Assembly (NCBI RefSeq): GCF_938028735.1
Contig: NZ_CALIMF010000011.1
Coordinates: 1 to 64,000, forward strand
DNA: 64,000 nt
Reading direction: 5' to 3'
DNA from: an uncultured Thermanaerothrix sp.
GTDB taxonomy: Bacteria; Chloroflexota; Anaerolineae; Anaerolineales; Anaerolineaceae
In this document: positions 11,109-26,140 of the stretch, one piece after another
Layout: the number at the start of each line of letters is the position of its first letter
How positions within the stretch are numbered: the stretch's first letter is position 1
Notes under the pieces: model-generated
What the model was told of the DNA's origin: nothing
Databases searched by the model: none
What the model saw: the letters and a program-made list of their open reading frames with translations, nothing else
Made by a program: the position numbers and the translations under genes

Positions 11109-11780
11109 CTAGGTGCCTTCAGCTAACTTCACCAGGCTATCACGATCCATCAACACCAGCTCGGTGCGTGTGACATCAATGATGTGGCGATCCGCCAGGT
11201 CGTAAAGTGTGCGACAGACCACCTCGCGCGTGGTGCCGATGCGCGCCGCCATGTCATCCAGAGTTAGTGTGCGTGGGAGGGTCGGACTTGCGGTGCTTTG
11301 GAAATGATCCAGAAGCAGGCGCGCCAGGCGTGCTGTTACCGGCTGAAACACCAGGCGCTCCAGTAGAACATTGGCCCGCCACATATACTGGAGCATCAAA
11401 CGCGCTAACGCCCATCCAATTCCCCCTTTGGCGAGCAACGGATCCAGGGAAGAGCGTGACCAAAGGGCGACTGTGGTGGGCTGATTGGCTTCTAAAGAGA
11501 CGGGAAGGGACAGGTCGGTCTCAAAGAAGGCTGGTCCCCAAAAAATATCGCCCCGGGCAAACGTCGTCACGATCAGAGAACGTCCCTCGGCAGAGACCTT
11601 TACGGCTTCGAGCTCCCCTTCAACAACAAGGAAGAGGTACGGCCAGTGATCACCCTGGGCTGCTAAGTACTCTTCCTTAGACAGGATACGCAGCAGAGCA
11701 TGCTGAGCCAAAAAGGCCCTCTCATATTCTGACAAAGAGTCAAAAAAAGGGTGAGACGCCAACACATCGGCGAGGCTCAT
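11109..11780 (-). CDS. Crp/Fnr-family transcriptional regulator, DNR-like
   Basis: The N-terminal cyclic-nucleotide-type beta-barrel spans about residues 5-125 and the C-terminal winged helix about 145-215. The recognition helix reads TTREVVCRTL. It keeps the Glu and Arg of the Fnr E-x-x-S-R pattern, with Cys in place of Ser. There is no N-terminal cysteine cluster, so it is not an iron-sulfur Fnr; redox, heme or NO sensing as in DNR-type members is possible. It diverges from the heme-copper-like cluster, and an Fnr/DNR-type palindrome at 13174-13187 is its likely target. Its own start appears leaderless. Confidence 0.88.
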   Translation of the reverse strand: MSLADVLASHPFFDSLSEYERAFLAQHALLRILSKEEYLAAQGDHWPYLFLVVEGELEAVKVSAEGRSLIVTTFARGDIFWGPAFFETDLSLPVSLEANQPTTVALWSRSSLDPLLAKGGIGWALARLMLQYMWRANVLLERLVFQPVTARLARLLLDHFQSTASPTLPRTLTLDDMAARIGTTREVVCRTLYDLADRHIIDVTRTELVLMDRDSLVKLAEGT

Positions 11781-11787
11781 TTGAATA

Positions 11788-11817
11788 ATTTTATCTCAGA
11801 TTTTGCGTTTAGTTAAA
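11788..11817 (-). promoter_or_regulatory. Promoter of the Crp/Fnr gene, leaderless layout
   Basis: On the minus strand, TTTAAC (11817-11812) and TAAAAT (11793-11788) are 18 bases apart. The -10 box is 7 bases from the ATG at 11780 and there is no ribosome binding site, so the transcript should start at or next to the start codon. Confidence 0.55.
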
Positions 11818-11841
11818 GCCTTTGGGAAAGGCATTGTGCTA

Positions 11842-11859
11842 TCCTTCACGTGTGAAGGA
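11842..11859. promoter_or_regulatory. 18-bp perfect palindrome before the Cys-rich lipoprotein gene
   Basis: TCCTTCAC-GT-GTGAAGGA is a perfect inverted repeat 6 bases before the ATG at 11866. Its right arm contains the GAAGGAG ribosome binding site. It could be a repressor operator, or an RNA hairpin that hides the ribosome binding site. Confidence 0.5.
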
Positions 11860-11865
11860 GGGGTT

Positions 11866-12300
11866 ATGCTGCGAAAACACGGTTTGGGGTTTCTGATGGT
11901 GATCCTGATCATGGGGCTCGGTTTGGCAGCCTGTCAATCTGAGGGTAATCCCTGCCACCGCGATACGACTTCCCCGCCCTATCTGACAGCATTACCTACC
12001 GCTGTGCTGCCGACGGCACCAACACCCGGACCTTCCCCGACCCCGATTCTGATCGAGATTAGGGGGAAGAAAATTGCAGTGGATAAGGTGGTGGAGGGAC
12101 CGCTGTGTCATGACGTCTGGCGCGGTACGGTCTATGTGACTTGCAATGTGCAGGTGAGGACCTGGGAAAAGCAACCCGATTTCCTGAAAGGATGTAGCCT
12201 CACCATCGAACCAGGAACGGTAGTCTATGTCGCAGCACACAACGATGCAGCTTATTACAACGGCTGTTCCTGCCACACCGGCGGAAATACTAATCCTTAG
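11866..12300 (+). CDS. Cys-rich lipoprotein of unknown function
   Basis: The 144-residue product starts MLRKHGLGFL and has a lipobox ending LAAC at C23, so it should be lipidated on the outer face of the membrane. A short Pro/Thr linker follows. The C-terminal part has several cysteines, ending in NGCSCHTG. A stretch reading CSLTIEPGTVVYVAA resembles the opening of right-handed beta-helix proteins, but the chain stops soon after. I chose the ATG at 11866 because the AAGGAGGGG site and lipobox fit it; upstream in-frame starts do not. It is followed 14 bases later by a membrane protein and lies beside the Crp/Fnr gene. The role is unknown; the cysteines could bind a metal or heme. Confidence 0.65.
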   Translation: MLRKHGLGFLMVILIMGLGLAACQSEGNPCHRDTTSPPYLTALPTAVLPTAPTPGPSPTPILIEIRGKKIAVDKVVEGPLCHDVWRGTVYVTCNVQVRTWEKQPDFLKGCSLTIEPGTVVYVAAHNDAAYYNGCSCHTGGNTNP

Positions 12301-12314
12301 ACAGGAGGTTGAAG

Positions 12315-13091
12315 ATGAAAAATCGTCAAACATTGGGGGGCATTCTAGCGCTGATCGCCGCCGCTATGGGAATTATCGGGCATATTGTGCTCTTCCTGCA
12401 GTGGTATCGCATCGGGATGAGCGCCGAATCGGCCGAACCCGGGTGCGAGAGCCTGCTCAAATATGTCCATCCAGCCATGGCCGATTTCGGCTTGCTGGCA
12501 GGAGCGCTGTTCGCGGTGAGCGCCTACGGTTTTTTCACCCGGCGCAACTGGGCCTTCTTCCTCACCACCCTTGGCCTGGTACTGGCGCTATTGGGGTCGT
12601 GGTTTGTCAATGTGCCCTACATGGCCGCCGGGTTGCCGCCCATCTACTTCCCGCTCTTTTGGCCTTACCTACTGTTGTATTTTCTGTTTTTGCGCCTGGT
12701 CGGTAAGATCACCTGGCGACAAACCCTGCTTGCACTCTTTACCGGCATGGCCTACATCTTCTGCTGGATGAATGGCGTTTCAAGCACTAGCCGCATTATC
12801 ACCCACGGTGATCCCATCTTTGTGTTGGTTCAGCGTCTGCATTGGGTGGCGATGCTAGGCTGGGCAGTTGTAACCATCGCCGTGATCCACAAACCCCGTG
12901 AGTGGGTGCGGGTGACCGGTTTGGTGGCAGCGACAACCGAATTGGTGGTAGGGATTCCTCTGGCTGCGGTAACGGCCCAGCAGTTGGGACGCTTCTCCCT
13001 CTTTGCCCTGGCGCCGTTGGCCAGCCTGGGCTTGCTGATTCTGTTCGCGTTGCCCAAGGCATGGGACTACTTTGTTCCTTCGAGTCAGTAA
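12315..13091 (+). CDS. Polytopic membrane protein of the heme-copper-like cluster
   Basis: This is a 258-residue protein with about seven hydrophobic helices and no motif I recognise. Several histidines sit at helix edges: GIIGHIVLF near 20, YVHPAMADFG near 50, SRIITHGDP near 160 and QRLHWVAML near 175. This leaves open heme binding but does not prove it. The start is the ATG at 12315, with AGGAGG 6 bases upstream; a TTG two codons earlier is less likely. It follows the Cys-rich lipoprotein and is closed by a terminator, so these two genes form a unit separate from the next five. Confidence 0.7.
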   Translation: MKNRQTLGGILALIAAAMGIIGHIVLFLQWYRIGMSAESAEPGCESLLKYVHPAMADFGLLAGALFAVSAYGFFTRRNWAFFLTTLGLVLALLGSWFVNVPYMAAGLPPIYFPLFWPYLLLYFLFLRLVGKITWRQTLLALFTGMAYIFCWMNGVSSTSRIITHGDPIFVLVQRLHWVAMLGWAVVTIAVIHKPREWVRVTGLVAATTELVVGIPLAAVTAQQLGRFSLFALAPLASLGLLILFALPKAWDYFVPSSQ

Positions 13092-13112: not shown

Positions 13113-13153
13113 GTGCCCCAAAGGCAGGGTGCCCTTGGGGCACTTATGTTTTT
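13113..13153 (+). terminator. Terminator after the lipoprotein/membrane-protein pair
   Basis: GTGCCCCAA (13113-13121) pairs with TTGGGGCAC (13135-13143). The stem encloses further partial pairing and is followed by TTATGTTTTT. It separates the first two genes of the cluster from the promoter at 13174-13218. Confidence 0.7.
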
Positions 13154-13173
13154 ACACCCCTATATGACGCTAT

Positions 13174-13218
13174 TTGACCTAAGTCAAAGATTCTAGCCGA
13201 CTTTGTGACTATTATAAC
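13174..13218 (+). promoter_or_regulatory. Fnr/DNR-type activator site and -10 region
   Basis: TTGAC-CTAA-GTCAA (13174-13187) is a perfect inverted repeat of the Fnr/DNR form. A T/A-rich -10 follows: TATTAT at 13210-13215, or TATAAC at 13213-13218. With the first, the transcript starts near 13222 and the palindrome is centred at -41.5, the class II position used by Fnr-type activators. No -35 hexamer is needed there, and none is seen. The leader to the ATG at 13270 is about 48 bases and has a GGGAG site. Confidence 0.7.
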
Positions 13219-13269
13219 AAATAGGGCTCATCGGCGCCCGAACGCTAGAGCAGATGGGAGATAACGGCA

Positions 13270-14754
13270 ATGCATGAATTTCGTAAGCGTGTAGACTATC
13301 TCTTTTCATCTACTAAAGGGCTGATCCTGCTTGCCATCGCCATGATTGCGCTGGAAACTGCCTTGTTTGGCCTGCTTTCTGGGCCGATGGCGGAATGGGG
13401 CGTACGCGATTGGGTGGTCAAAACCCTTGGTATGCGCCTTGTGCCAGCGGAACGCGAGGGACGCATCATCATTCTATATCATACGATTGCCATGGCCGTG
13501 ATCGCGATTGAGACCTATCTGATCACAGCACTAGTACGCATGGCCCCTTTTTATCGCACTGCCGTGCGTCTGCTAATCACAGTAGGTTATCTCGTAGCCA
13601 TGATTTTTGGCCTGGGGTTTGCCTACTGGGGGCATAACTGGGCCTTCCATGGCTTGTATATTGCCGGTCTAACCCTGATCTTCTTCGCCGGGGGGCTACT
13701 GTGTATCGGGTTGTGGCCATGGAACAAGGCTTATTATGTTCGCGATCCGGCCTACGCCCATACCCGTAGCGGTGTAGATTTGGAGCGGGTGGCTTTCTTT
13801 ACCACAGCGCTGACCACGGTAATCTCGGCCGTGTTCGGAGCGGTGCCAGGGGCTTATTACGGCCACGGATTTCAGACATTTTTGGCCGAGGACATCATTC
13901 GCCTGCCCGAGAAAACGGGGTTTCAGTACGCCGTTATCGGCCACCTGCACATCATGCTGGCATTGATCGCGATTATGTTGACCCTGATCATCGGGCGGTG
14001 GCTAGACTTTAAGGGGGTTTTGCACAAAATTGCCATGCCGTTGATGATCCTAGGTACCGCTGTCCTCAATTTGGGGGTCTGGGGAGTGGTCACGCCCTTG
14101 GAACCCATTGCGCACATGATCATCTACGTTGGCGCCACGCCGGCCATGTTGGCAGCGCTGATGCTGGTGATCTTTGGATGGGATCAGTTGATTCGCGAGG
14201 GTACCCGTGATATCCCCAAACCCAGTGCGGGGCAAAAATTGCGCGCCCTCTTACATGATCCCTTGCGGTTCGGGCCACTGTGGCAGATGGTGTTCATGAA
14301 TTTCACCGTCAGCGGGGTGGGCATTTTTGTGGCAGTGCGCCTGGACGAAATTTTCCGCCAATGGCCGGCGCGTGAGGAGCGTTTGATTTTGACCGGTCAC
14401 TGGCACGTGCTCTCTGCAATTATTGCCACCATTATCCTGCTCTATTATGGCGATCTTATCGGCCTGAAGGGTTGGGGGCGTCGCTTATATGGTTGGGGAA
14501 TTATCGTCTTCTCCGACCTGGCATTTGCCGCGGTCACCGTTTACGAAATGAAACGCTTGGTGATCAGCGAAGCCCACCAGCAGCCGCTGGTTAATACTGT
14601 TCTGCTGTTGGTGGATATTGGATTGGGAGGGGTGCTGGTAATCCTGGCATTGGTGCTTATCTGGCGGTTACTCGATCTATTCCGGCCGAAGGGACGCTGG
14701 ACGGTCGAAGCCCAGCAAGCAGATCCAGTGATGAAAACGGAGGTCAAAGCATGA
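13270..14754 (+). CDS. 12-helix heme-copper-oxidase-like protein lacking CuB ligands
   Basis: The 494 residues form about twelve membrane helices. Histidines suited to heme ligation fall in helices 2 (H71, LYHTIAMA), 6 (H225 and H227, GHLHIMLA) and 10 (H377 and H379, GHWHVLSA). These are the helices that carry cofactor ligands in heme-copper oxidases and NO reductases, and the helix 10 HxH matches that family. The helix 6 H-x3-E/Y pattern and the helix 7 His-His pair that hold CuB or FeB are absent. Segments after the two GHxH motifs resemble each other, as expected from the family's three-fold pseudo-symmetry. It is cotranscribed with a heme O synthase-like gene and probably Fnr/DNR-controlled. 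I infer a respiratory or NO-related hemoprotein; its activity is unknown. Confidence 0.65.
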   Translation: MHEFRKRVDYLFSSTKGLILLAIAMIALETALFGLLSGPMAEWGVRDWVVKTLGMRLVPAEREGRIIILYHTIAMAVIAIETYLITALVRMAPFYRTAVRLLITVGYLVAMIFGLGFAYWGHNWAFHGLYIAGLTLIFFAGGLLCIGLWPWNKAYYVRDPAYAHTRSGVDLERVAFFTTALTTVISAVFGAVPGAYYGHGFQTFLAEDIIRLPEKTGFQYAVIGHLHIMLALIAIMLTLIIGRWLDFKGVLHKIAMPLMILGTAVLNLGVWGVVTPLEPIAHMIIYVGATPAMLAALMLVIFGWDQLIREGTRDIPKPSAGQKLRALLHDPLRFGPLWQMVFMNFTVSGVGIFVAVRLDEIFRQWPAREERLILTGHWHVLSAIIATIILLYYGDLIGLKGWGRRLYGWGIIVFSDLAFAAVTVYEMKRLVISEAHQQPLVNTVLLLVDIGLGGVLVILALVLIWRLLDLFRPKGRWTVEAQQADPVMKTEVKA

Positions 14755-15683
14755 AGGGGAAGACATGGAGCGAGTTTTACGCATCTGGGAGATGCTGGGG
14801 CATAGCGCTGGTGCTGATGTTGGTGTTGACGGCGTGTCAGCCGGCAATGGCGGCTACACCTTTGCCGATGTACGATACCGGGGTTGACCCCAACGCTTGG
14901 GTGGTGGTACCAGCGGGATCCTTCTTATCTGGGCAATTCAACACCCCGATTAACCTCGAGCATGCTTTTGCTATCATGGTCACGGATGTCACCGTTGACC
15001 AATATGTCCGTTTTCTCAACCAGGCATTGGCCGATGGGACACTGCGCTTGCAGGGGGATCAAGTGGTGGGGTTTTATCCAGGGGATCCATTCCATGGGGC
15101 AAAACACGAGGAGGAAATCCCTGCCCAGGATTACCGGTTTGTCCCGCTCAATGACCCCGCTGCCCCTTTTGTTTATCAGGAGAACGCCTTTACGCCAAAG
15201 GCGGGGTATGCCCACCATCCGATGACCTATGTCTCCTGGTTTGGGGCATGGGGCTATTGCCATTATTACGGGTATCGCCTGCCGAGCGGACTGGAGTGGG
15301 AAAAAGCCGCGCGGGGCGAAGATGGGCGCCCATACCCCTGGGGGTGGGAACTGACGCCCGCCAACGCCAATTATTATTCCAGCGGCGATCCCTTTGAAGA
15401 TATGCGCACCGTAGGATCACGCACAACTCCGGTTGGGTTTTACAATGGCAAGACCTACGATGGTTTTGTCACTCTGGATTCCCCCAGCCCCTACGGACTT
15501 TATGATATGGCAGGTAATGTGTGGCAGTGGGTGGGCGACATCACCCAAGGCATGCATTACCGCTTCATGCGAGGCGGCTCTAAGGACAATTACCCGCCAG
15601 ACCTACGTGTGTGGGTCACCAATAACGCCACGCCTGTGTACTACGGGCCCGGTACGGGTTTTCGCTGTGTACGCGAACCCTAA
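14751..15683 (+). CDS. Formylglycine-generating-enzyme-like (SUMF1) lipoprotein
   Basis: A signal peptide ends in the lipobox LTAC (C29), so the protein is probably anchored outside the membrane. The rest (about 48-310) is a FGE-sulfatase/SUMF1 domain: VPAGSFLSGQF, TYVSWFGAWGYCHYYGYRLP, GLEWEKAARGEDGRPYPWG, GLYDMAGNVWQW, RGGS and a closing GTGFRCVR. Members either oxidise a cysteine to formylglycine or serve as non-heme-iron or binding proteins; which applies here is not clear. The ATG overlaps the stop of the 12-helix protein (ATGA), so the two are translated together, an unusual partnership. Confidence 0.85.
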   Translation: MKGKTWSEFYASGRCWGIALVLMLVLTACQPAMAATPLPMYDTGVDPNAWVVVPAGSFLSGQFNTPINLEHAFAIMVTDVTVDQYVRFLNQALADGTLRLQGDQVVGFYPGDPFHGAKHEEEIPAQDYRFVPLNDPAAPFVYQENAFTPKAGYAHHPMTYVSWFGAWGYCHYYGYRLPSGLEWEKAARGEDGRPYPWGWELTPANANYYSSGDPFEDMRTVGSRTTPVGFYNGKTYDGFVTLDSPSPYGLYDMAGNVWQWVGDITQGMHYRFMRGGSKDNYPPDLRVWVTNNATPVYYGPGTGFRCVREP

Positions 15684-15707: not shown

Positions 15708-16574
15708 ATGCACTCATGGCGAGTGGTGATCCAACAACGCATCAGACTCTATGCATCTCTTATTAAACCGCTACAGACCGGCTTGCTTTTAGCCACTGGG
15801 TTGGCCGGGTTTATGAGTGCGCGCTGTCCGATTCTTAACTTGGGCACCTTGCTGGCCCTAACGGGCAGTCTATTCCTAGCGATCAGCGGGAGTACCGTGC
15901 TCAACATGTGGTGGGACCGCGACATTGATGCGAAAATGCGCCGCACCTGCGGGCGCCCGTTGGCAGCCGGCATCCTTTCACCCCGCGAGACGTTCATTTT
16001 GGGCACCATCCTTTCAATTCTGGGCATAGGCTGGGCAGTTAGGCTCAATGTCACCTACAGTTGGATTGTTTTTACCGGTTGGTTCTTCGATGTGGTGGTG
16101 TATACATTGTGGCTCAAACGTCGCACCTGTTGGAGTATTTTATGGGGTGGCATTGCAGGGGGGATGCCGGTGCTGGCCGGACGTGCCTTGGGCGTAGGAG
16201 CCATTGATGGGATAGGGATCCTGCTGGCACTGGCGGTCCTCTTTTGGATTCCAACGCACATCATGACCTTCTCCATGCGGCGCTTCGATGAATACCAAGC
16301 GGCCCAAATTCCGACCTTCCCGGCACGCTATGGATTCAGGACAACCCGACTGATCATCTCCATCTCCAGCCTGTTGGCAACGGCTGCCATCACATTGGCA
16401 GGGGTTTGGCTGGGCATGGAATGGGGATACCTGCGCCTGTTAATCGTCCTTTCAGCCGGGCTGCTTTGCCTGGCCTTGATTGTCATGCTTAGACCCAGCG
16501 AGCGTATCCACTTCAGCCTGTATAAATACGCTTCGCTCTACATGCTTTCTGCCATGCTCCTCCTAGCCCTTTGA
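15708..16574 (+). CDS. UbiA-family prenyltransferase, heme O synthase-like
   Basis: This is a 288-residue membrane enzyme with nine or so helices. The first Asp-rich motif reads NMWWDRDIDAKMRRT and the region after it CGRPLAAG, as in CtaB/CyoE protoheme IX farnesyltransferases. WIPTHIMTFSMRRFDEY matches the second conserved loop of that family (WTPPHF...). Heme O synthases convert heme B to heme O for heme-copper oxidases, so its place two genes after the oxidase-like protein is meaningful. I chose the ATG at 15708 for its TGGAGG site; an earlier TTG is possible. Other UbiA functions cannot be excluded, so no symbol is given. Confidence 0.8.
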   Translation: MHSWRVVIQQRIRLYASLIKPLQTGLLLATGLAGFMSARCPILNLGTLLALTGSLFLAISGSTVLNMWWDRDIDAKMRRTCGRPLAAGILSPRETFILGTILSILGIGWAVRLNVTYSWIVFTGWFFDVVVYTLWLKRRTCWSILWGGIAGGMPVLAGRALGVGAIDGIGILLALAVLFWIPTHIMTFSMRRFDEYQAAQIPTFPARYGFRTTRLIISISSLLATAAITLAGVWLGMEWGYLRLLIVLSAGLLCLALIVMLRPSERIHFSLYKYASLYMLSAMLLLAL

Positions 16575-16577
16575 CCT

Positions 16578-17183
16578 ATGCGCACAAAATTCCATTACAC
16601 CCTTCCTCTCACCCTAACAGCGCTGATCGCGGCCTGGCAGATCGCGGCAGGGCATCCCGGGAACACATCCCTGGCCATCTGGGCCTACACCTTCGGCTTT
16701 GGCGTCCTCTTAGTGGCCAGCCTGTGGTTAATCCTGATGGGGTTAGAGGTTTTAAGCCATCCTGCTGGGGTGTTAATCTCGGCGCTGATTCCCCTAAGTA
16801 TCTCGCTAGGATTAGTTACCGAATACGCCTTGGCGTTTACTTGGGTCTATCTAGGTTTTGTTCTCGTTGGCTGGCTGGGGATTGCCATAACGCGGTTCAT
16901 GAGAGTACACCCGCCTCTACGTATTGGGGCGGTGGCCTTTACCCATGGGGTAGCCGGGTTTTCCATTGTAGGTTTGCCTCTGGTAGCCCTCTGCCAAGGT
17001 CAGGCTGGGCCCTTTATTCTCGGCGTGAGCGTGGGGGGAGCGGTGATCAGTCTTAGCGGCATGCTCCTGCTTTGGCAGCGCATGGGACGGTTGTGGAGCA
17101 AATGGCGAGATCCCCTATCTGTACTCCCTTGGTCACTGTTGCTTTCAACCTTTTGCCTGGTCATCGGGCTCAATCTGCGCTAG
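16578..17183 (+). CDS. Six-helix membrane protein of the heme-copper-like cluster
   Basis: This is a 201-residue hydrophobic protein with about six helices and little loop sequence. I see no known motif. Single histidines occur in AAGHPGNTS near 26 and FTHGVAGFS near 123. It starts 3 bases after the heme O synthase-like stop, with no strong ribosome binding site, so it probably depends on upstream translation. The tight spacing argues that it belongs to the same complex or pathway as its neighbours. Its function is unknown. Confidence 0.65.
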   Translation: MRTKFHYTLPLTLTALIAAWQIAAGHPGNTSLAIWAYTFGFGVLLVASLWLILMGLEVLSHPAGVLISALIPLSISLGLVTEYALAFTWVYLGFVLVGWLGIAITRFMRVHPPLRIGAVAFTHGVAGFSIVGLPLVALCQGQAGPFILGVSVGGAVISLSGMLLLWQRMGRLWSKWRDPLSVLPWSLLLSTFCLVIGLNLR

Positions 17184-17221: not shown

Positions 17222-17926
17222 ATGAAAGCATTTCCCAGATGGATGCGCTATTTGCGGTTTCTGGCCATTCTCATGATGGGAATAACCGCCCTTTTCACCT
17301 TGACCAGTGGCCTGGGCACCAGTTGTGTGGCCATTAACCCAACCGGGTTTGGGCCTAATATGGCCCCGCTAGCCCGCCTTCAGTGGCTGTATATCCTGTT
17401 CGTGGTCATCACCACGCTGATCGGCCTGATGGGAATACGCGCGGTTCTTCTGCTGATCCGCGGGCGTAAAAACGCCTACTCATATACGATGACAGTGTTG
17501 ATCGCGGGCTTAGTCATTGGCGTGATTCACATGATCACCTCACGCGCCCTACGAGGGAAATCCATGCCGGTTGATGCGGTTGTTGGTGTCACTGCCCTCA
17601 CTCTCATTCTCTTTTTGCTCTTCCTCCTGCCCAGGCTACACCCTATGTTTATAAATTCAGAGGGGGAGAGTACAGGCCGTGGGGAGGATCAGATCGCCGC
17701 CTTCACCCTATGGGCCACGGGTATTTTCACATTGACCCTGCCCCACTGGATGGCCGCCACCCACACCTGGGACGGAGTAAATTGGGCTGCCACCTTCCCA
17801 ACCCTGACGCTTCTAGCGGGGGTAGGACAAATTGGGCTCGGGATTTACTGGCTGTTGAGACGGCGGCAAGTTCGTGTTCGCCTCCTTTTCCCACGCTATC
17901 AGCCTAAACCCTCCTTGCGCCACTAA
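17222..17926 (+). CDS. Membrane protein, last gene of the heme-copper-like cluster
   Basis: This 234-residue protein has about six helices and a basic C-terminus. No family is recognised. Conserved-looking features are TSGLGTSCVAINPTGFGPNM after helix 1, VIHMITSRALRGK near 100, and LPHWMAATHTWDGVNW near 180, which places histidines and tryptophans at an outer loop. The ribosome binding site AAGGAGG is strong. A terminator follows at 17949-17994, closing the unit that starts near 13222. Confidence 0.65.
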   Translation: MKAFPRWMRYLRFLAILMMGITALFTLTSGLGTSCVAINPTGFGPNMAPLARLQWLYILFVVITTLIGLMGIRAVLLLIRGRKNAYSYTMTVLIAGLVIGVIHMITSRALRGKSMPVDAVVGVTALTLILFLLFLLPRLHPMFINSEGESTGRGEDQIAAFTLWATGIFTLTLPHWMAATHTWDGVNWAATFPTLTLLAGVGQIGLGIYWLLRRRQVRVRLLFPRYQPKPSLRH

Positions 17927-18083: not shown

Positions 18084-18134
18084 TATACAAAATACTCTTT
18101 ACAAAGTTTATACAATATGCTAAACTATGTACAA
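18084..18134 (+). promoter_or_regulatory. Promoter and CarH-type operator repeats, first carH-like gene
   Basis: Four copies of a TnTACAA core occur at 18084, 18098, 18109 and 18128. Those at 18098 and 18109 are in direct 11-bp register. A promoter TTTACA (18098-18103) - 17 bases - TAAACT (18121-18126) runs through them, so a protein bound there would cover the -35 box. CarH proteins are known to bind tandem direct repeats over the -35 element and release them in light. Autoregulation by the adjacent CarH-like proteins is inferred. Confidence 0.55.
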
Positions 18135-18170
18135 CAATCCATTGGGTTGGCGCTAAAGGAGCGAGATGCA

Positions 18171-19136
18171 ATGCCCACAATACTAGAACTTTCCGACGAA
18201 CCCAAGTACACCATCAAGGCCGTAAGTGCCCAAACCGGCGTCCGTCCGGTAACGCTGCGCGCCTGGGAGCGACGGCACGATGTGCTCACCCCCCATCGCT
18301 CTGAAAATCGTTACCGCCTTTACTCTGATCGCGATGTAGCCATCTTGCGCTGGCTCAAAGATCGCACCGACAACGGCGTGAGCATCAGCGAGGCAGTGAC
18401 TGAACTACGTCAGATGATCCGCAACGGCTTGTGGCCTGAAGTTATCCCCGTCACGCCCCAAGCGCCTACTCAGCCCGCGGCGGTGGCGCCCGAGATCTAT
18501 GCCCAGCAACTTTACAAAGCCCTGATCCGACACGACGAAGCCCGCGCCAGTGAGATTCTGCGTGAAGCCATGAGCAGTTACCCTCTGCGCCCTCTGTTTG
18601 AACAGGTGCTGATCCCCTGCCTAGTCCAGATTGGGGAAGCGTGGTATCGGGGGGATATTCGCATTACCACCGAGCATTTTGCTAGCGCTTTTTTGCGTGG
18701 TAAATTACTGACCCTGTTCCAGACCTATCCGGTGCGGCGGGGTAGCCCCTTTATTCTGGTTGGCGGTGCGCCTTACGAACAACACGAACTCGGCGCGCTG
18801 ATGCTGGCCATCCTGTTGCGCAGCGAAGGGTATCGCGTGGAGTATCTGGGGCCGGATATCCCGCTGGAGGACTTGGTAGACTATGCGCGTGAAGAACGCC
18901 CGACCCTGATCATCCTGACAGCCACCTCTGAGGAATCTGCCCTGGCCATGCGCCGCCTGAAGGAGAAGTTATCCCGCCTTCGCCCAGCGCCGCTATTTGG
19001 CTATGGGGGCGCAGCCTTCCTCAATAAACCTGATCTAATCCAGCGCGTACCGGGCATTTTCCTGGGCAAAACCCTTTCAGAGGGGACAGATAAGATTCGT
19101 GACTTATTGAGCACATCCGCGCGGACCACTCGTTAG
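18171..19136 (+). CDS. CarH-like MerR-type AdoCbl photoreceptor repressor 1
   Basis: The N-terminal MerR helix-turn-helix (about 12-80, YTIKAVSAQTGVRPVTLRAWERR) is followed by a four-helix cobalamin-binding cap and a Rossmann B12 domain. The light-sensing W-x9-E-H motif of CarH is complete (W158, E168, H169). The base-on histidine is in EQHELG (H205), where CarH places its lower axial ligand. In known members the adenosylcobalamin-bound tetramer represses carotenoid genes in the dark and light breaks it apart. The ATG at 18171 has AAAGGAG 9 bases upstream; an in-frame ATG at 18117 would lie inside the promoter. A second copy follows directly. Confidence 0.9.
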   Translation: MPTILELSDEPKYTIKAVSAQTGVRPVTLRAWERRHDVLTPHRSENRYRLYSDRDVAILRWLKDRTDNGVSISEAVTELRQMIRNGLWPEVIPVTPQAPTQPAAVAPEIYAQQLYKALIRHDEARASEILREAMSSYPLRPLFEQVLIPCLVQIGEAWYRGDIRITTEHFASAFLRGKLLTLFQTYPVRRGSPFILVGGAPYEQHELGALMLAILLRSEGYRVEYLGPDIPLEDLVDYAREERPTLIILTATSEESALAMRRLKEKLSRLRPAPLFGYGGAAFLNKPDLIQRVPGIFLGKTLSEGTDKIRDLLSTSARTTR

Positions 19137-19162
19137 ACACGCCGGGCATAAGCATGCAGGCT

Positions 19163-19184
19163 TGTACAAAGTAGGTACAAGGGG
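19163..19184 (+). promoter_or_regulatory. Tandem 11-bp repeats before the second carH-like gene
   Basis: TGTACAAAGTA (19163-19173) is followed at once by GGTACAAGGGG (19174-19184), sharing a GTACAA core in 11-bp register. The core matches the repeats before the first carH-like gene. I could not place a convincing -10/-35 pair here. Confidence 0.5.
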
Positions 19185-19233
19185 TGTGTTTCATGATAAG
19201 ATTTGATTACATTTACTGTCTATAAAGGTAGAA

Positions 19234-20217
19234 TTGCGATATAAAAACCGGATGGATAAACCCGAGTTATCTCACGATCCGCACGCACCCGTCTATAACA
19301 TCAAAGCGGTCTCACGTTTGGTGGGATTGCCCTCGGTTACCCTGCGTGCGTGGGAACGTCGCTACGGCCTTCCCCGCCCCCGCCGTGGTCACCAGGGTTA
19401 TCGTCTTTATTCCGAATACGACCTTCACCTACTGCGCTGGCTCAAGCAACAAGTGGACACCGGGATCAGTATTGGGCGGGCGGTGGAGTACTGGCACGAG
19501 TTACGTTCCATGGGCCGCGATCCAGTAGCCGAGCAAACGCGCTTTTCCCCAACTGCACAGCCCATTTCTCCTAACCATTTAGCGCGCGATCTCTACGCGG
19601 CGCTGACCCACTTCGACGAAGAAGCCGCTGCCGAAGTCCTACGCCGCGCCTCGGCGCTCTACACTATTGACCAAGTGCTGACCGAAGTTGTGCAACCCAT
19701 GCTGGTAGAAATTGGTGAGGCTTGGCATCGCGGAGAGTTACCGATCGCCGTGGAGCATTTTGCTACCCAATTTTGCCTCCAGCATCTGATGAGCCTGTTG
19801 GCTGCCTCTGCACCGCCCCGCCACCCTGGGATCATTGTCGCCGCCTGCGCTCCGGGCGAGACCCACCAAATTGGTTTGCTCATGCTGGTGGTAATGTTGC
19901 GCTGGCGCGGTTGGGATGTGAAGTATTTGGGGCAAGATCTGAAACTGGAGGGCATGGCCGAGGCACTGGGGCCGCTCAAGCCGCGCCTGTTGCTCTTCTC
20001 TGCCACTCGCCCAGAAATTGCCCTCAATCTCTTGGATCTGCCCACGGCTCTCGCGGCGTTCCCCGATCCCAAGCCTTGGGTGGTGTTGGGTGGTCAAGCC
20101 TTTGAAGGCCTGCGCCTACCCAAAACGATTCCCGCTGTGTATCTGCAGGCTCCCCTCCTTGAAACAGTAACGCTGATTGAACGTTTGATGCAAGAACACA
20201 CCCCTAAAACCTCTTGA
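19234..20217 (+). CDS. CarH-like MerR-type AdoCbl photoreceptor repressor 2
   Basis: This is a paralogue of the preceding gene with the same plan. The MerR domain spans about 21-90 (YNIKAVSRLVGLPSVTLRAWERRYG), then a helical cap with W164-x9-E174-H175, then a B12-binding domain with ETHQIG and the putative axial ligand H211. All the residues expected for light-responsive adenosylcobalamin binding are therefore present. The start given is a TTG with AAAGG 5 bases upstream; the ATG at 19252 is the alternative. It is followed 9 bases later by an MFS transporter and then the carotenoid genes. Confidence 0.9.
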   Translation: MRYKNRMDKPELSHDPHAPVYNIKAVSRLVGLPSVTLRAWERRYGLPRPRRGHQGYRLYSEYDLHLLRWLKQQVDTGISIGRAVEYWHELRSMGRDPVAEQTRFSPTAQPISPNHLARDLYAALTHFDEEAAAEVLRRASALYTIDQVLTEVVQPMLVEIGEAWHRGELPIAVEHFATQFCLQHLMSLLAASAPPRHPGIIVAACAPGETHQIGLLMLVVMLRWRGWDVKYLGQDLKLEGMAEALGPLKPRLLLFSATRPEIALNLLDLPTALAAFPDPKPWVVLGGQAFEGLRLPKTIPAVYLQAPLLETVTLIERLMQEHTPKTS

Positions 20218-23502: not shown

Positions 23503-24996
23503 ATGTCAAAAAACGTCATTGTCATCGGATCGGGCTTTGGGGGGCTGGCAGTGGCCATCCGCTTGGCTGCGCGGGGGTTTAAGGTTACCATCCTGGAAAA
23601 GCGGGATAAACCTGGCGGGCGGGCTTATGTCTATGAATTAGATGGCTTCAAATTTGATGGCGGCCCTACCGTCATTACGGCGCCGTTTTTATTCGATGAG
23701 TTGTTCGAACTAGCCGGGCGCAAACGCGAGGACTACGTGACCTTTGTGCCGGTTAATCCGTTTTACCGTATTTTTGACGCCGAGGGGCGCTCGTTTGAAT
23801 ATAACAACCAGTCTGAGTTAATCTTTTCCCAAATTGAAAAGTGGAATCCAGCCGATAAAGAGGGGTATCGGCGCTTTCTGGAAAGCACCCGCCCTATCTT
23901 TGAGAAGGGTTTTCTGCAATTGGCCGATAAACCCTTCACCCGCCTGAGCGACATGCTCAAAGTTGCCCCGGACTTGGTGCGACTACGTGCTTACCTAAGT
24001 GTTTATACTTATGTCTCTCAATTTGTGCAAAATGATTTTCTGCGCCAGGTCTTCTCCTTCCACCCTCTCCTGATAGGAGGCAACCCATATGATTCTAGCA
24101 GTATCTACGCCATGATCCATTACCTAGAACGTGAGTGGGGTGTTTACTTCGCCATGGGCGGCACGGGGGCGCTAGTAAACGCGCTGGTGCGCCTGTTTGA
24201 AGAACTGGGCGGACAATTGGTGCTTAATGCGGAGGTGGATCAAATCTTGGTGGACGAACCGCGGCGACGGGTGCGTGGAGTACGGCTAAAGGACGGCACT
24301 ACCCAGGCGGCGGATATTGTGATTTCCAATGCCGATGTGGCGTTTACTTATCGCCATCTCATCCCCGAGGCTTACCGGCGCAAATACACCAACCGCCGTA
24401 TCGAAAAGATGCGCTACAGCATGTCGCTGTTCGTAATCTACTTTGGCACCCGACGGCGCTACTTGGATAGCCGCTTGGCGCACCATAACATCATTTTAGG
24501 CCCGCGCTACAAGGGCCTGTTGGATGACATCTTCCGTCGCAAGGTGCTGGCCGAAGATTTCTCACTCTACCTACACATGCCGACCCTCACCGATCCTTCG
24601 CTGGCTCCAGAAGGACATGAGGCCTTCTACGTCCTTTCCCCCGTGCCACATCTGGGCGGCCAGGTGGATTGGGAACGCACCGCCGAACCTTATAAAAACC
24701 GCATCCTGGAATTCCTGGAGGAAAACTACCTGCCCGGCCTGCGCGAGAACCTGGTGGTAGAGCACTATATCGACCCGCTCCACTTCCGCGATGTGCTCAA
24801 CAGTTATCTTGGCTCTGCCTTCTCAGTGGAACCGATTTTGACCCAATCGGCTTGGTTCCGGCCCCACAATCAATCCGAGGAATTCTCTAATCTCTACTTC
24901 GTAGGCGCTGGCACCCATCCTGGCGCCGGCCTACCGGGCGTGGTGTCTTCCGCGAAAGTAGTTGAAAAACTGATTCTTACCCCAGCCTCCCATTGA
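23503..24996 (+). CDS. crtI: Phytoene desaturase
   Basis: This enzyme introduces conjugated double bonds into phytoene to give lycopene-type carotenoids at the membrane. The 497-residue chain has the FAD fold [17 protein letters not shown] at 9-25, then [15 protein letters not shown] and [17 protein letters not shown], all hallmarks of bacterial CrtI. It closes with the signature [18 protein letters not shown]. The ATG at 23503 has CGGAGG 8 bases upstream; a GTG three codons earlier overlaps that site and is rejected. A TATAGT at 23467-23472 could be a -10 box but lacks a clear -35. crtB follows after 13 bases. Confidence 0.95.
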
Positions 24997-25009
24997 TTAG
25001 GATTGCACC

Positions 25010-25942
25010 ATGAGCCAGCCTCCTCCCTCTCACCCGCCTGCTCCTATGCGCTTGGCTGAAGCGTTTGCACTGACCGAAGCGGTCATCAAATCACACTCGC
25101 GGACTTTTCACTTTGCCACCGCGTTGTTGCCGCGCCAAGAGCGGCAGGCCATCCACGCTTTGTACGCCTTCTGCCGAGCCACCGACGACCTAGTGGACTC
25201 GCAATGTGCCAGCCTGGATGACCTGGAACGCTGGCGGGCGCAGGTAGCGCTGGAGCCCGAAGAACAACCTAATCCCTTGCTGTTGGCCTGGGGCGTGGTA
25301 CGCCGCACGTATGGGGTGGACCGACGTTACGAACAGGCGTTGATTGATGGGGTGGCCATGGATCTGGCTTACTGCCAATACCCCTCCTGGGAAGACCTAC
25401 GGCTGTATTGTTACCGCGTCGCCTCAACGGTGGGCCTTCTGGCCATCCCCATCATCGGTCTCGCGCCGGGTGCCACTTTTGAGCAAGCCGCCCCTTTCGC
25501 GATTGAACTAGGAATCGCGTTACAACTAACTAATATCCTACGCGATATAGGAGAAGACGCACGCCGGGGGCGGCTTTACCTACCCCAAGAAGACTTGGTG
25601 CGATTTGGCCTCCAGCGCGAGGACATCTTGAATGGCGTGTTGGATGCCCGTTTCGTTGCATTGATGCAGTTTGAGATCGCCCGTGCACGTGATTTATATC
25701 GCCGGGCGCTACCCGGAATCCGTCTTTTGCACCCGCGCGCTCGTCCCGCCGTGGGTGCCGCGGCGTTGCTGTATGCCGCCATTCTAGACGAGATCGAGCG
25801 AATCGGCTACCAAGTGCACACCCGCCGCGCCCACACCTCCACTTGGCGCAAGATTCGCCTGCTGCCTGCCATCCTCATGCAGATCCAACGTCTCCCCCCA
25901 GTGGAAACCGCGCTGCCCTCTGAGTTCACCACCTCTTTTTAA
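25010..25942 (+). CDS. crtB: Phytoene synthase
   Basis: This enzyme condenses two geranylgeranyl diphosphates to phytoene, the first committed carotenoid step. Both Asp-rich metal motifs are present: FCRATDDLVDS (D59, D60, D63) and TNILRDIGEDARRGRLYLP (about 175-193). The chain is 310 residues, near the usual length. A Pro-rich N-terminus of a dozen residues precedes the fold. It is the last gene of the carotenoid locus and is separated from the next gene by about 200 bases in which I see no gene. Confidence 0.95.
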   Translation: MSQPPPSHPPAPMRLAEAFALTEAVIKSHSRTFHFATALLPRQERQAIHALYAFCRATDDLVDSQCASLDDLERWRAQVALEPEEQPNPLLLAWGVVRRTYGVDRRYEQALIDGVAMDLAYCQYPSWEDLRLYCYRVASTVGLLAIPIIGLAPGATFEQAAPFAIELGIALQLTNILRDIGEDARRGRLYLPQEDLVRFGLQREDILNGVLDARFVALMQFEIARARDLYRRALPGIRLLHPRARPAVGAAALLYAAILDEIERIGYQVHTRRAHTSTWRKIRLLPAILMQIQRLPPVETALPSEFTTSF

Positions 25943-26140
25943 TTCACCGCAATATAACGCTCACCCGTGGAAGCATTGGGGAACGGTTGGAATGGCTTTG
26001 CCACTCTAGGGCCTCCTATTCCGCCTCGCCGGTAACGGATTACTCAAAAGCTCCACAAAGGCGAATCCTCTCCCTATCCCACAACAGAGTTTGGGGTTAT
26101 ACTTTTAGAAAATTTGTCAGACAATTAAGCGAGGTGGTTT

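Follow-up and report, generated by a model that had tools for sequence, protein, structure and literature searches.

At the class II CRP/FNR promoters of E. coli, the activator dyad is centred at -41.5 and there is no good -35 element. DNR of Pseudomonas has the box TTGATnnnnATCAA and controls nir, nor and nos. The box of NnrR from alpha-proteobacteria is ctTTGcgnnnncgCAAag (PMC1274295), and that of HcpR1 from delta-proteobacteria and cyanobacteria is wyTTGACnnnnGTCAArw, which is found before hcp and norB; in Synechocystis, a box of the HcpR1 type lies ahead of norB, whose product is an NO reductase with the heme-copper fold (PMC1274295; PMC545781). A published rule ties the recognition helix to the box: Arg at CRP position 180 goes with TGTGA, and Ser or Pro at this position with TTGAC (TTGACN4GTCAA) (PMC1274295). 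Here we analyse a palindrome of the latter kind that lies upstream of an operon for an oxidase-like protein. The palindrome is probably, on the comparisons set out below, a class II activator site of the CRP/FNR protein encoded at 11109-11780, and the same regulator would also serve a lipoprotein gene, a cupin gene and nirS.

The palindrome, its promoter and their conservation

The 14-mer TTGACCTAAGTCAA (TTGAC-CTAA-GTCAA) lies at 13174-13187 exactly as an earlier note on this DNA had described it, and direct reading of the sequence extends the arms of this perfect palindrome to 6 bp each (TTTGAC/GTCAAA). In its 16-bp form, TTTGACCTAAGTCAAA (13173-13188, forward strand), it is the putative activator box of the oxidase-like operon and the only match with no mismatches in the window (the whole 64-kb stretch of DNA that was analysed). 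The chance expectation in the window is 0.00 for the 16-mer, which appeared in none of 100 dinucleotide shuffles, and 0.07 for the 14-mer, which appeared in 6 of 100. Across the 2.62 Mb of the genome the 14-mer occurs at three sites, compared with two for a reversed control, and the two remaining copies are both inside open reading frames. The 14-mer alone is therefore not rare genome-wide, and since it is not enriched in the genome, the case for the site rests on comparison.

Downstream of the palindrome, a TGTG (13204-13207) precedes a -10 hexamer, TATTAT (13210-13215, forward strand), which begins at offset 37 from the start of the box, as in orthologous promoters. The centre of the palindrome, 13180.5, is 34.5 bp from the last base of the hexamer; taking that base as -7 puts the centre at -41.5 and the predicted start at about 13222. 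The position of about -41.5 proposed earlier is thus recovered if TATTAT is the -10, and the dyad stands at the class II distance from the predicted start, with a spacing conserved in orthologues and in dozens of Anaerolineae promoters overall. The palindrome is set apart from the gene before it by a terminator-like hairpin with a T run (13127-13145, forward strand), which fits an independent promoter.

For the comparison, the 180 bp from -200 to -20 before the oxidase-like gene were examined at 88 loci. TTTGACN4GTCAAA, allowing two mismatches, was found in 27 of these 88 orthologous regions, against about one in dinucleotide shuffles, and the distance from the start of the box to TRTG was 32 in 20 of the 27 (background 1/108). 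The element that follows the box at fixed spacing in orthologues is an extended -10, TTGTGA-TATTTT. With TRTG at offset 32, the -10 hexamer falls at offset 37, where TATTAT begins in the window, and the centre again at -41.5. One promoter plan is common to three classes, those of the oxidase gene, of the divergent regulator/lipoprotein pair and of an extra upstream gene. The box is TTTGACN4GTCAAA in the oxidase class and TGTGAN6TCACA in the extra-gene class; a reading of the palindrome as a TGTGA-type CRP box was rejected, since that class, although genuine in orthologues, precedes a gene that is missing from the window. The activator reading is weakened by the oxidase box of Thermanaerothrix daxensis, which is degenerate (ATTAACCTTAGTCAAA).

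It could be argued that the palindrome arose by chance or belongs to an ordinary sigma-70 promoter with TTGACC as its -35, and the near-control count of the 14-mer in the genome, together with its occurrence in shuffled windows, would fit such an origin. However, orthologue conservation, fixed spacing and an independent matrix ranking (see below) all speak against it, and TTGACC is separated from TATTAT by 30 bp, a gap too long for a -35, which rules out that assignment; a simple sigma-70 scan found no consensus sigma-70 promoter at the palindrome. The comparative data bring this reading, which we consider extremely improbable, close to refutation: judged from sequence conservation, the palindrome is not due to chance.

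A second dyad, TGTG-N8-CACA, overlaps the -10 in the window (13204-13219) and in the orthologous -10 regions of regulator-type and m201-type promoters, where 16 of 19 and 23 of 45 cases, respectively, preserve its CACA; TGTGACTATTATAACA at 13204 is the top-scoring site with a TGTGA matrix. This dyad would suit a site that represses, or a protein that acts as an activator from -41.5 while restricting itself through the second dyad. Oxidase-class promoters, however, retain the right half of the dyad in only 2 of 27 cases while conserving the extended -10, and -41.5 is the classical activating position, here with a good -35 missing. Repression or self-limitation is therefore an unlikely role, and simple class II activation is the preferred one.

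The neighbouring regulator

The CRP/FNR-family regulator (11109-11780, reverse strand; PF00027, PF13545) starts 1.39 kb from the palindrome. Its recognition helix, T-T-R-E-V-V-C-R, contains the E-x-x-C-R that the earlier note had pointed out at 1.4 kb, and its one cysteine, C189, lies inside this helix; the protein thus has no Fe-S cluster motif, again as had been claimed, and lacks the cysteine cluster of FNR. What had gone unmentioned is the Arg at CRP-180, which accompanies a Cys at CRP-184. R-E-x-V-C-R is kept in the regulator orthologues, and Arg-180 is present in all those examined. Among 19 orthologues, the sensor domain showed no invariant His, Cys or Met, and the regulator has no counterpart of Met68 in the sensor barrel of HcpR (PMC12750200). 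These sequences argue against a conserved protein heme ligand in the sensor domain, though they do not settle the matter, so that neither the HcpR nor the DNR mechanism of heme sensing should be taken for granted. Tandem CRP/FNR paralogues, with R-E-x-V-C-R beside P-E-V-V-C-R helices, were observed at L032/L043 (genome G018) and L031/L042 (genome G005), a natural pair for comparing box specificity.

The regulator shares an intergenic region with a divergent lipoprotein gene (11866-12300, forward strand), a probable target that is probably co-transcribed with the gene for a 258-aa membrane protein (12315-13091, forward strand); at many loci, homologues of the latter are encoded close to the oxidase-like gene. 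A second, weaker regulator box, TTTGCGTTTAGTTAAA (11802-11817, forward strand), lies in this region, centred at about -42.5 relative to a -10, TATCCT, at 11840-11845. The same architecture, with the box TTTGCYTTAAGGCAAA (TTTGM-N6-KCAAA), was present at the divergent regulator/lipoprotein promoter in 16 of 17 loci with an adjacent regulator orthologue.

A matrix was built from 14 own-promoter regulator boxes of other genomes, none of them from this genome or from T. daxensis. When all 16-mers of the 64-kb window were ranked with it, the one at 13173 came first (21.9 bits) and the one at 11802 second (15.0 bits), with the third at 7.0 bits. Boxes scoring above 25 bits were found at 17 loci, all in genomes with a regulator orthologue and none in the 25 without; most of these boxes had built the matrix, so this is a co-occurrence rather than an independent test. 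The oxidase box was likewise seen more often where a candidate regulator of either type was present (23 of 41 versus 4 of 19, p 0.013), a difference that is confounded by phylogeny and carries little weight; counting against the link, the box occurs in three or four genomes without either type (L095, L138 and L156; L135 has a weak relative only). The palindrome is very probably, given the ranking by boxes from other genomes, the docking site of the neighbouring regulator. The earlier note had linked a DNR-like regulator to a heme-copper-like unit. Its link to the neighbour is borne out by the own-promoter matrix and by the single CRP/FNR gene; the assignment to DNR does not fit Arg-180, Cys-184 and the lack of a TTGAT-N4-ATCAA box, which makes the label only loosely right.

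Besides the gene at 11109-11780, no full CRP/FNR gene was detected in the genome; at 88% completeness, a further family member may lie in the missing part. The palindrome might then be a genuine activator site whose cognate is a P-E-x-x-S-R protein (DNR/HcpR1-type) encoded outside the assembled part. At six loci (L094, L096, L114, L118, L153 and L162), a P-E-A-I/V-S-R regulator gene immediately precedes the oxidase gene, and TTGAC/TTGAT boxes lie between the two; a protein with Ser or Pro at position 180 is what the rule predicts for TTGACN4GTCAA (PMC1274295). No P-E-x-x-S-R orthologue was found in this genome (G000), however, and the CRP/FNR genes recovered from T. daxensis, the closest relative, were an R-E-V-V-C-R orthologue (69%) and one dissimilar gene with a non-matching helix, TLYTVSR. 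Furthermore, TTTGACTTAAGTCAAA serves as the own-promoter box of R-E-V-V-C-R regulators at L102 and L126. The six loci agree with the rule and would fit the replacement of one regulator by another at an old site, and a missing cognate is an improbable explanation here. Under the preferred reading, in which the neighbouring regulator binds the palindrome, a protein with Arg-180 and Cys-184 is paired with TTTGC/TTTGA boxes instead of the TGTGA box that the rule predicts; this counts against that reading, and would make the protein an apparent exception to the rule (PMC1274295). If its family breaks the correspondence between Arg-180 and a G in the box, as it appears to, this would be useful for annotating CRP/FNR regulators.

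The oxidase-like operon and other sites in the genome

The first gene of the operon (13270-14754, forward strand) encodes a 494-aa membrane protein with 12 transmembrane helices and a heme-copper-oxidase fold. It is followed on the same strand by genes conserved in the operon, for a SUMF1/FGE-domain lipoprotein (14751-15683), encoded next to the oxidase-like protein at almost every locus, a CtaB/CyoE heme o synthase (15708-16574) and two membrane proteins of 201 aa (16578-17183) and 234 aa (17222-17926). Two adjacent MerR-B12-binding (CarH-like) regulators are encoded downstream of the operon at 18117-20217, as in T. daxensis. The closest relative of the oxidase-like protein, in T. daxensis GNS-1, is 84% identical and has the same gene order. 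A sample of 301 genomes from the phylum held 12 homologues; in the genome collection, 297 relatives were confirmed, of which 80 loci were kept, and relatives were also seen on contigs labelled KSB1, Aminicenantes, Ignavibacteria and Neomarinimicrobiota. No description of the operon or of the box motif was found in the literature searched.

The 494-aa protein belongs to no sequence family: searches against Pfam, NCBIfam and PDB sequences gave no match for it, and neither it nor 12 homologues matched COX1 (PF00115). Its AlphaFold2 model (pTM 0.84), by contrast with these sequence searches, has the 12-helix subunit I fold, with VIA-align Z scores of 19-23 to oxidases and NO reductases, the best being 23.4 to 3mk7_D (cbb3 oxidase) and 21.3 to 4xyd_A (cNOR). 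Seven histidines show no variation across 80 sequences (H71, H127, H225, H227, H282, H377, H379), and histidines are placed in TM2, TM6, the start of TM8 and TM10. The three CuB histidines with their His-His pair are not found; A281-H282 replaces HH, and TM6, with H225 and H227 both invariant, carries one extra invariant histidine. Helix positions suggest that H71 and H379 would be low-spin heme ligands, H377 a high-spin ligand, and H225/H227 with H282 a copper or iron site.

The genome was searched for further boxes by pattern and by family. The exact motif TTGAC-N4-GTCAA, proposed earlier for a genome-wide check before respiratory genes, gave only the three sites noted above, two of them in open reading frames; because this was hardly above control, a corrected, looser motif was needed, and it led to nirS. 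TTTGMN6KCAAA had 29 genomic matches, against 7 for the control, and nearly all of those inspected were in coding sequence. A composite search for a box, 21-22 further bases and TANNNT returned nine matches in this genome. Three of the nine are well-formed promoters with the same spacing, before the oxidase operon, a cupin gene and nirS; the others are in coding sequence or beside an ordinary-looking -35/-10 pair. nirS encodes a 689-aa cytochrome cd1 nitrite reductase (L211:562-2631; contig C15 of G000, about 24061-26130; PF02239, E 1e-133), and its box, TTTGCGCTAGCGCAAT, is centred at -41.5 relative to a -10, TATTCT. The protein has extra cytochrome c segments and resembles the Anaerolineales-type NirS described previously (PMC8756737); a different Anaerolineae genome has nirS next to the regulator cluster. 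The cupin gene (G000:C12:91875-92195) has two regulator-type boxes upstream; it is 82% identical in T. daxensis, where both boxes are conserved. The same double-box promoter was seen in G005 and G018 before genes for an FmdE-like lipoprotein (L024:15040-16566) and a membrane protein (L024:14048-14902), likely further members of the regulon. Boxes of this genome are mostly of the TTTGCG type, and the oxidase box alone is TTGAC-N4-GTCAA; its departure from most of the others at positions 5-6 (TTTGAC rather than TTTGCG) counts against a shared regulator.

We infer the following course of binding and activation. The active regulator dimer would bind TTTGAC-CTAA-GTCAAA at -41.5, where it would cover the -35 region, an element that is poorly conserved, and contact RNA polymerase. 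Transcription would start from the TATTAT -10, and the transcript would carry the heme-copper-fold protein, the FGE lipoprotein, heme o synthase and the pair of small membrane proteins. The regulator would also act at its own divergent lipoprotein promoter, at the cupin gene and at nirS; a protein with these targets would be a regulator responding to nitrogen oxides (nitrite or NO), working like NnrR, HcpR or DNR. Given the matching sites before nirS and other genes, the oxidase-like cluster is probably part of a small regulon for nitrogen oxides in Anaerolineae.

The box and promoter architecture shared with nirS gives a testable role to an unclassified heme-copper-fold cluster with nearly 300 relatives, some beyond Chloroflexota. 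The genome should make NO via NirS. A single PF00115 protein is encoded in it, an oxidase carrying HPAVY, and at 88% completeness the genome yielded no conventional NO reductase; the cluster is therefore a direct candidate for the missing step, in which the oxidase-fold protein, as a hypothetical NO reductase, may handle the NO made by NirS. A wider proposal, which we offer tentatively and at somewhat less than even chances, is that of a new NO reductase family with a rebuilt active site (two histidines in TM6, one at the start of TM8). Controlled by an R-E-x-x-C-R regulator that reads TTTGC/TTTGA and not TGTGA, this family would take part in NirS-dependent respiration of nitrite, both in Anaerolineae and in other phyla.

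Relation to known systems

At the level of the promoter, the locus shares with the class II promoters of E. coli a dyad centred at -41.5 and the lack of a good -35, but differs in the extended -10 (TRTGN) of most relatives and in a regulator and targets that come from Anaerolineae. The oxidase-like protein has the 12-helix fold and histidine positions of the heme-copper oxidase/NO reductase superfamily (cbb3 CcoN, cNOR NorB), at about 10% identity, with one His at the CuB HH site and without the HPEVY tyrosine.

Among regulators, DNR is similar in lacking Fe-S cysteines and in having nir and a heme-copper-fold unit as targets. It differs in its recognition helix and in its box arms, the boxes here being TTTGAC/TTTGCG dyads and not TTGATnnnnATCAA, and its structure (PDB 3dkw) gave a weak sequence match to the regulator (E 8.6e-4, compared with 3.7e-8 for 3i54). 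In their letters, the boxes are closer to the NnrR and HcpR types than to the TTGAT of DNR. The core of the oxidase-operon box at 13174-13187 is an exact match to the HcpR1 consensus, TTGACnnnnGTCAA; most boxes here, however, are TTTGC, and the helix has Arg at CRP-180 in all orthologues examined where HcpR1 would have Ser or Pro. Like NnrR, the regulator is a CRP/FNR protein that lacks Fe-S cysteines; boxes similar to TTTGCG-N4-CGCAAA stand at nirS and at the cupin gene and match the NnrR boxes TTTGcgnnnncgCAAa (PMC1274295), and its targets, as for NnrR, would comprise a nitrite reductase and a heme-copper-fold enzyme. The oxidase-operon box, TTTGAC-N4-GTCAAA, fits the NnrR box in its outer TTTG/CAAA only, the host belongs to Chloroflexota, and the likeness to NnrR falls short of established orthology.
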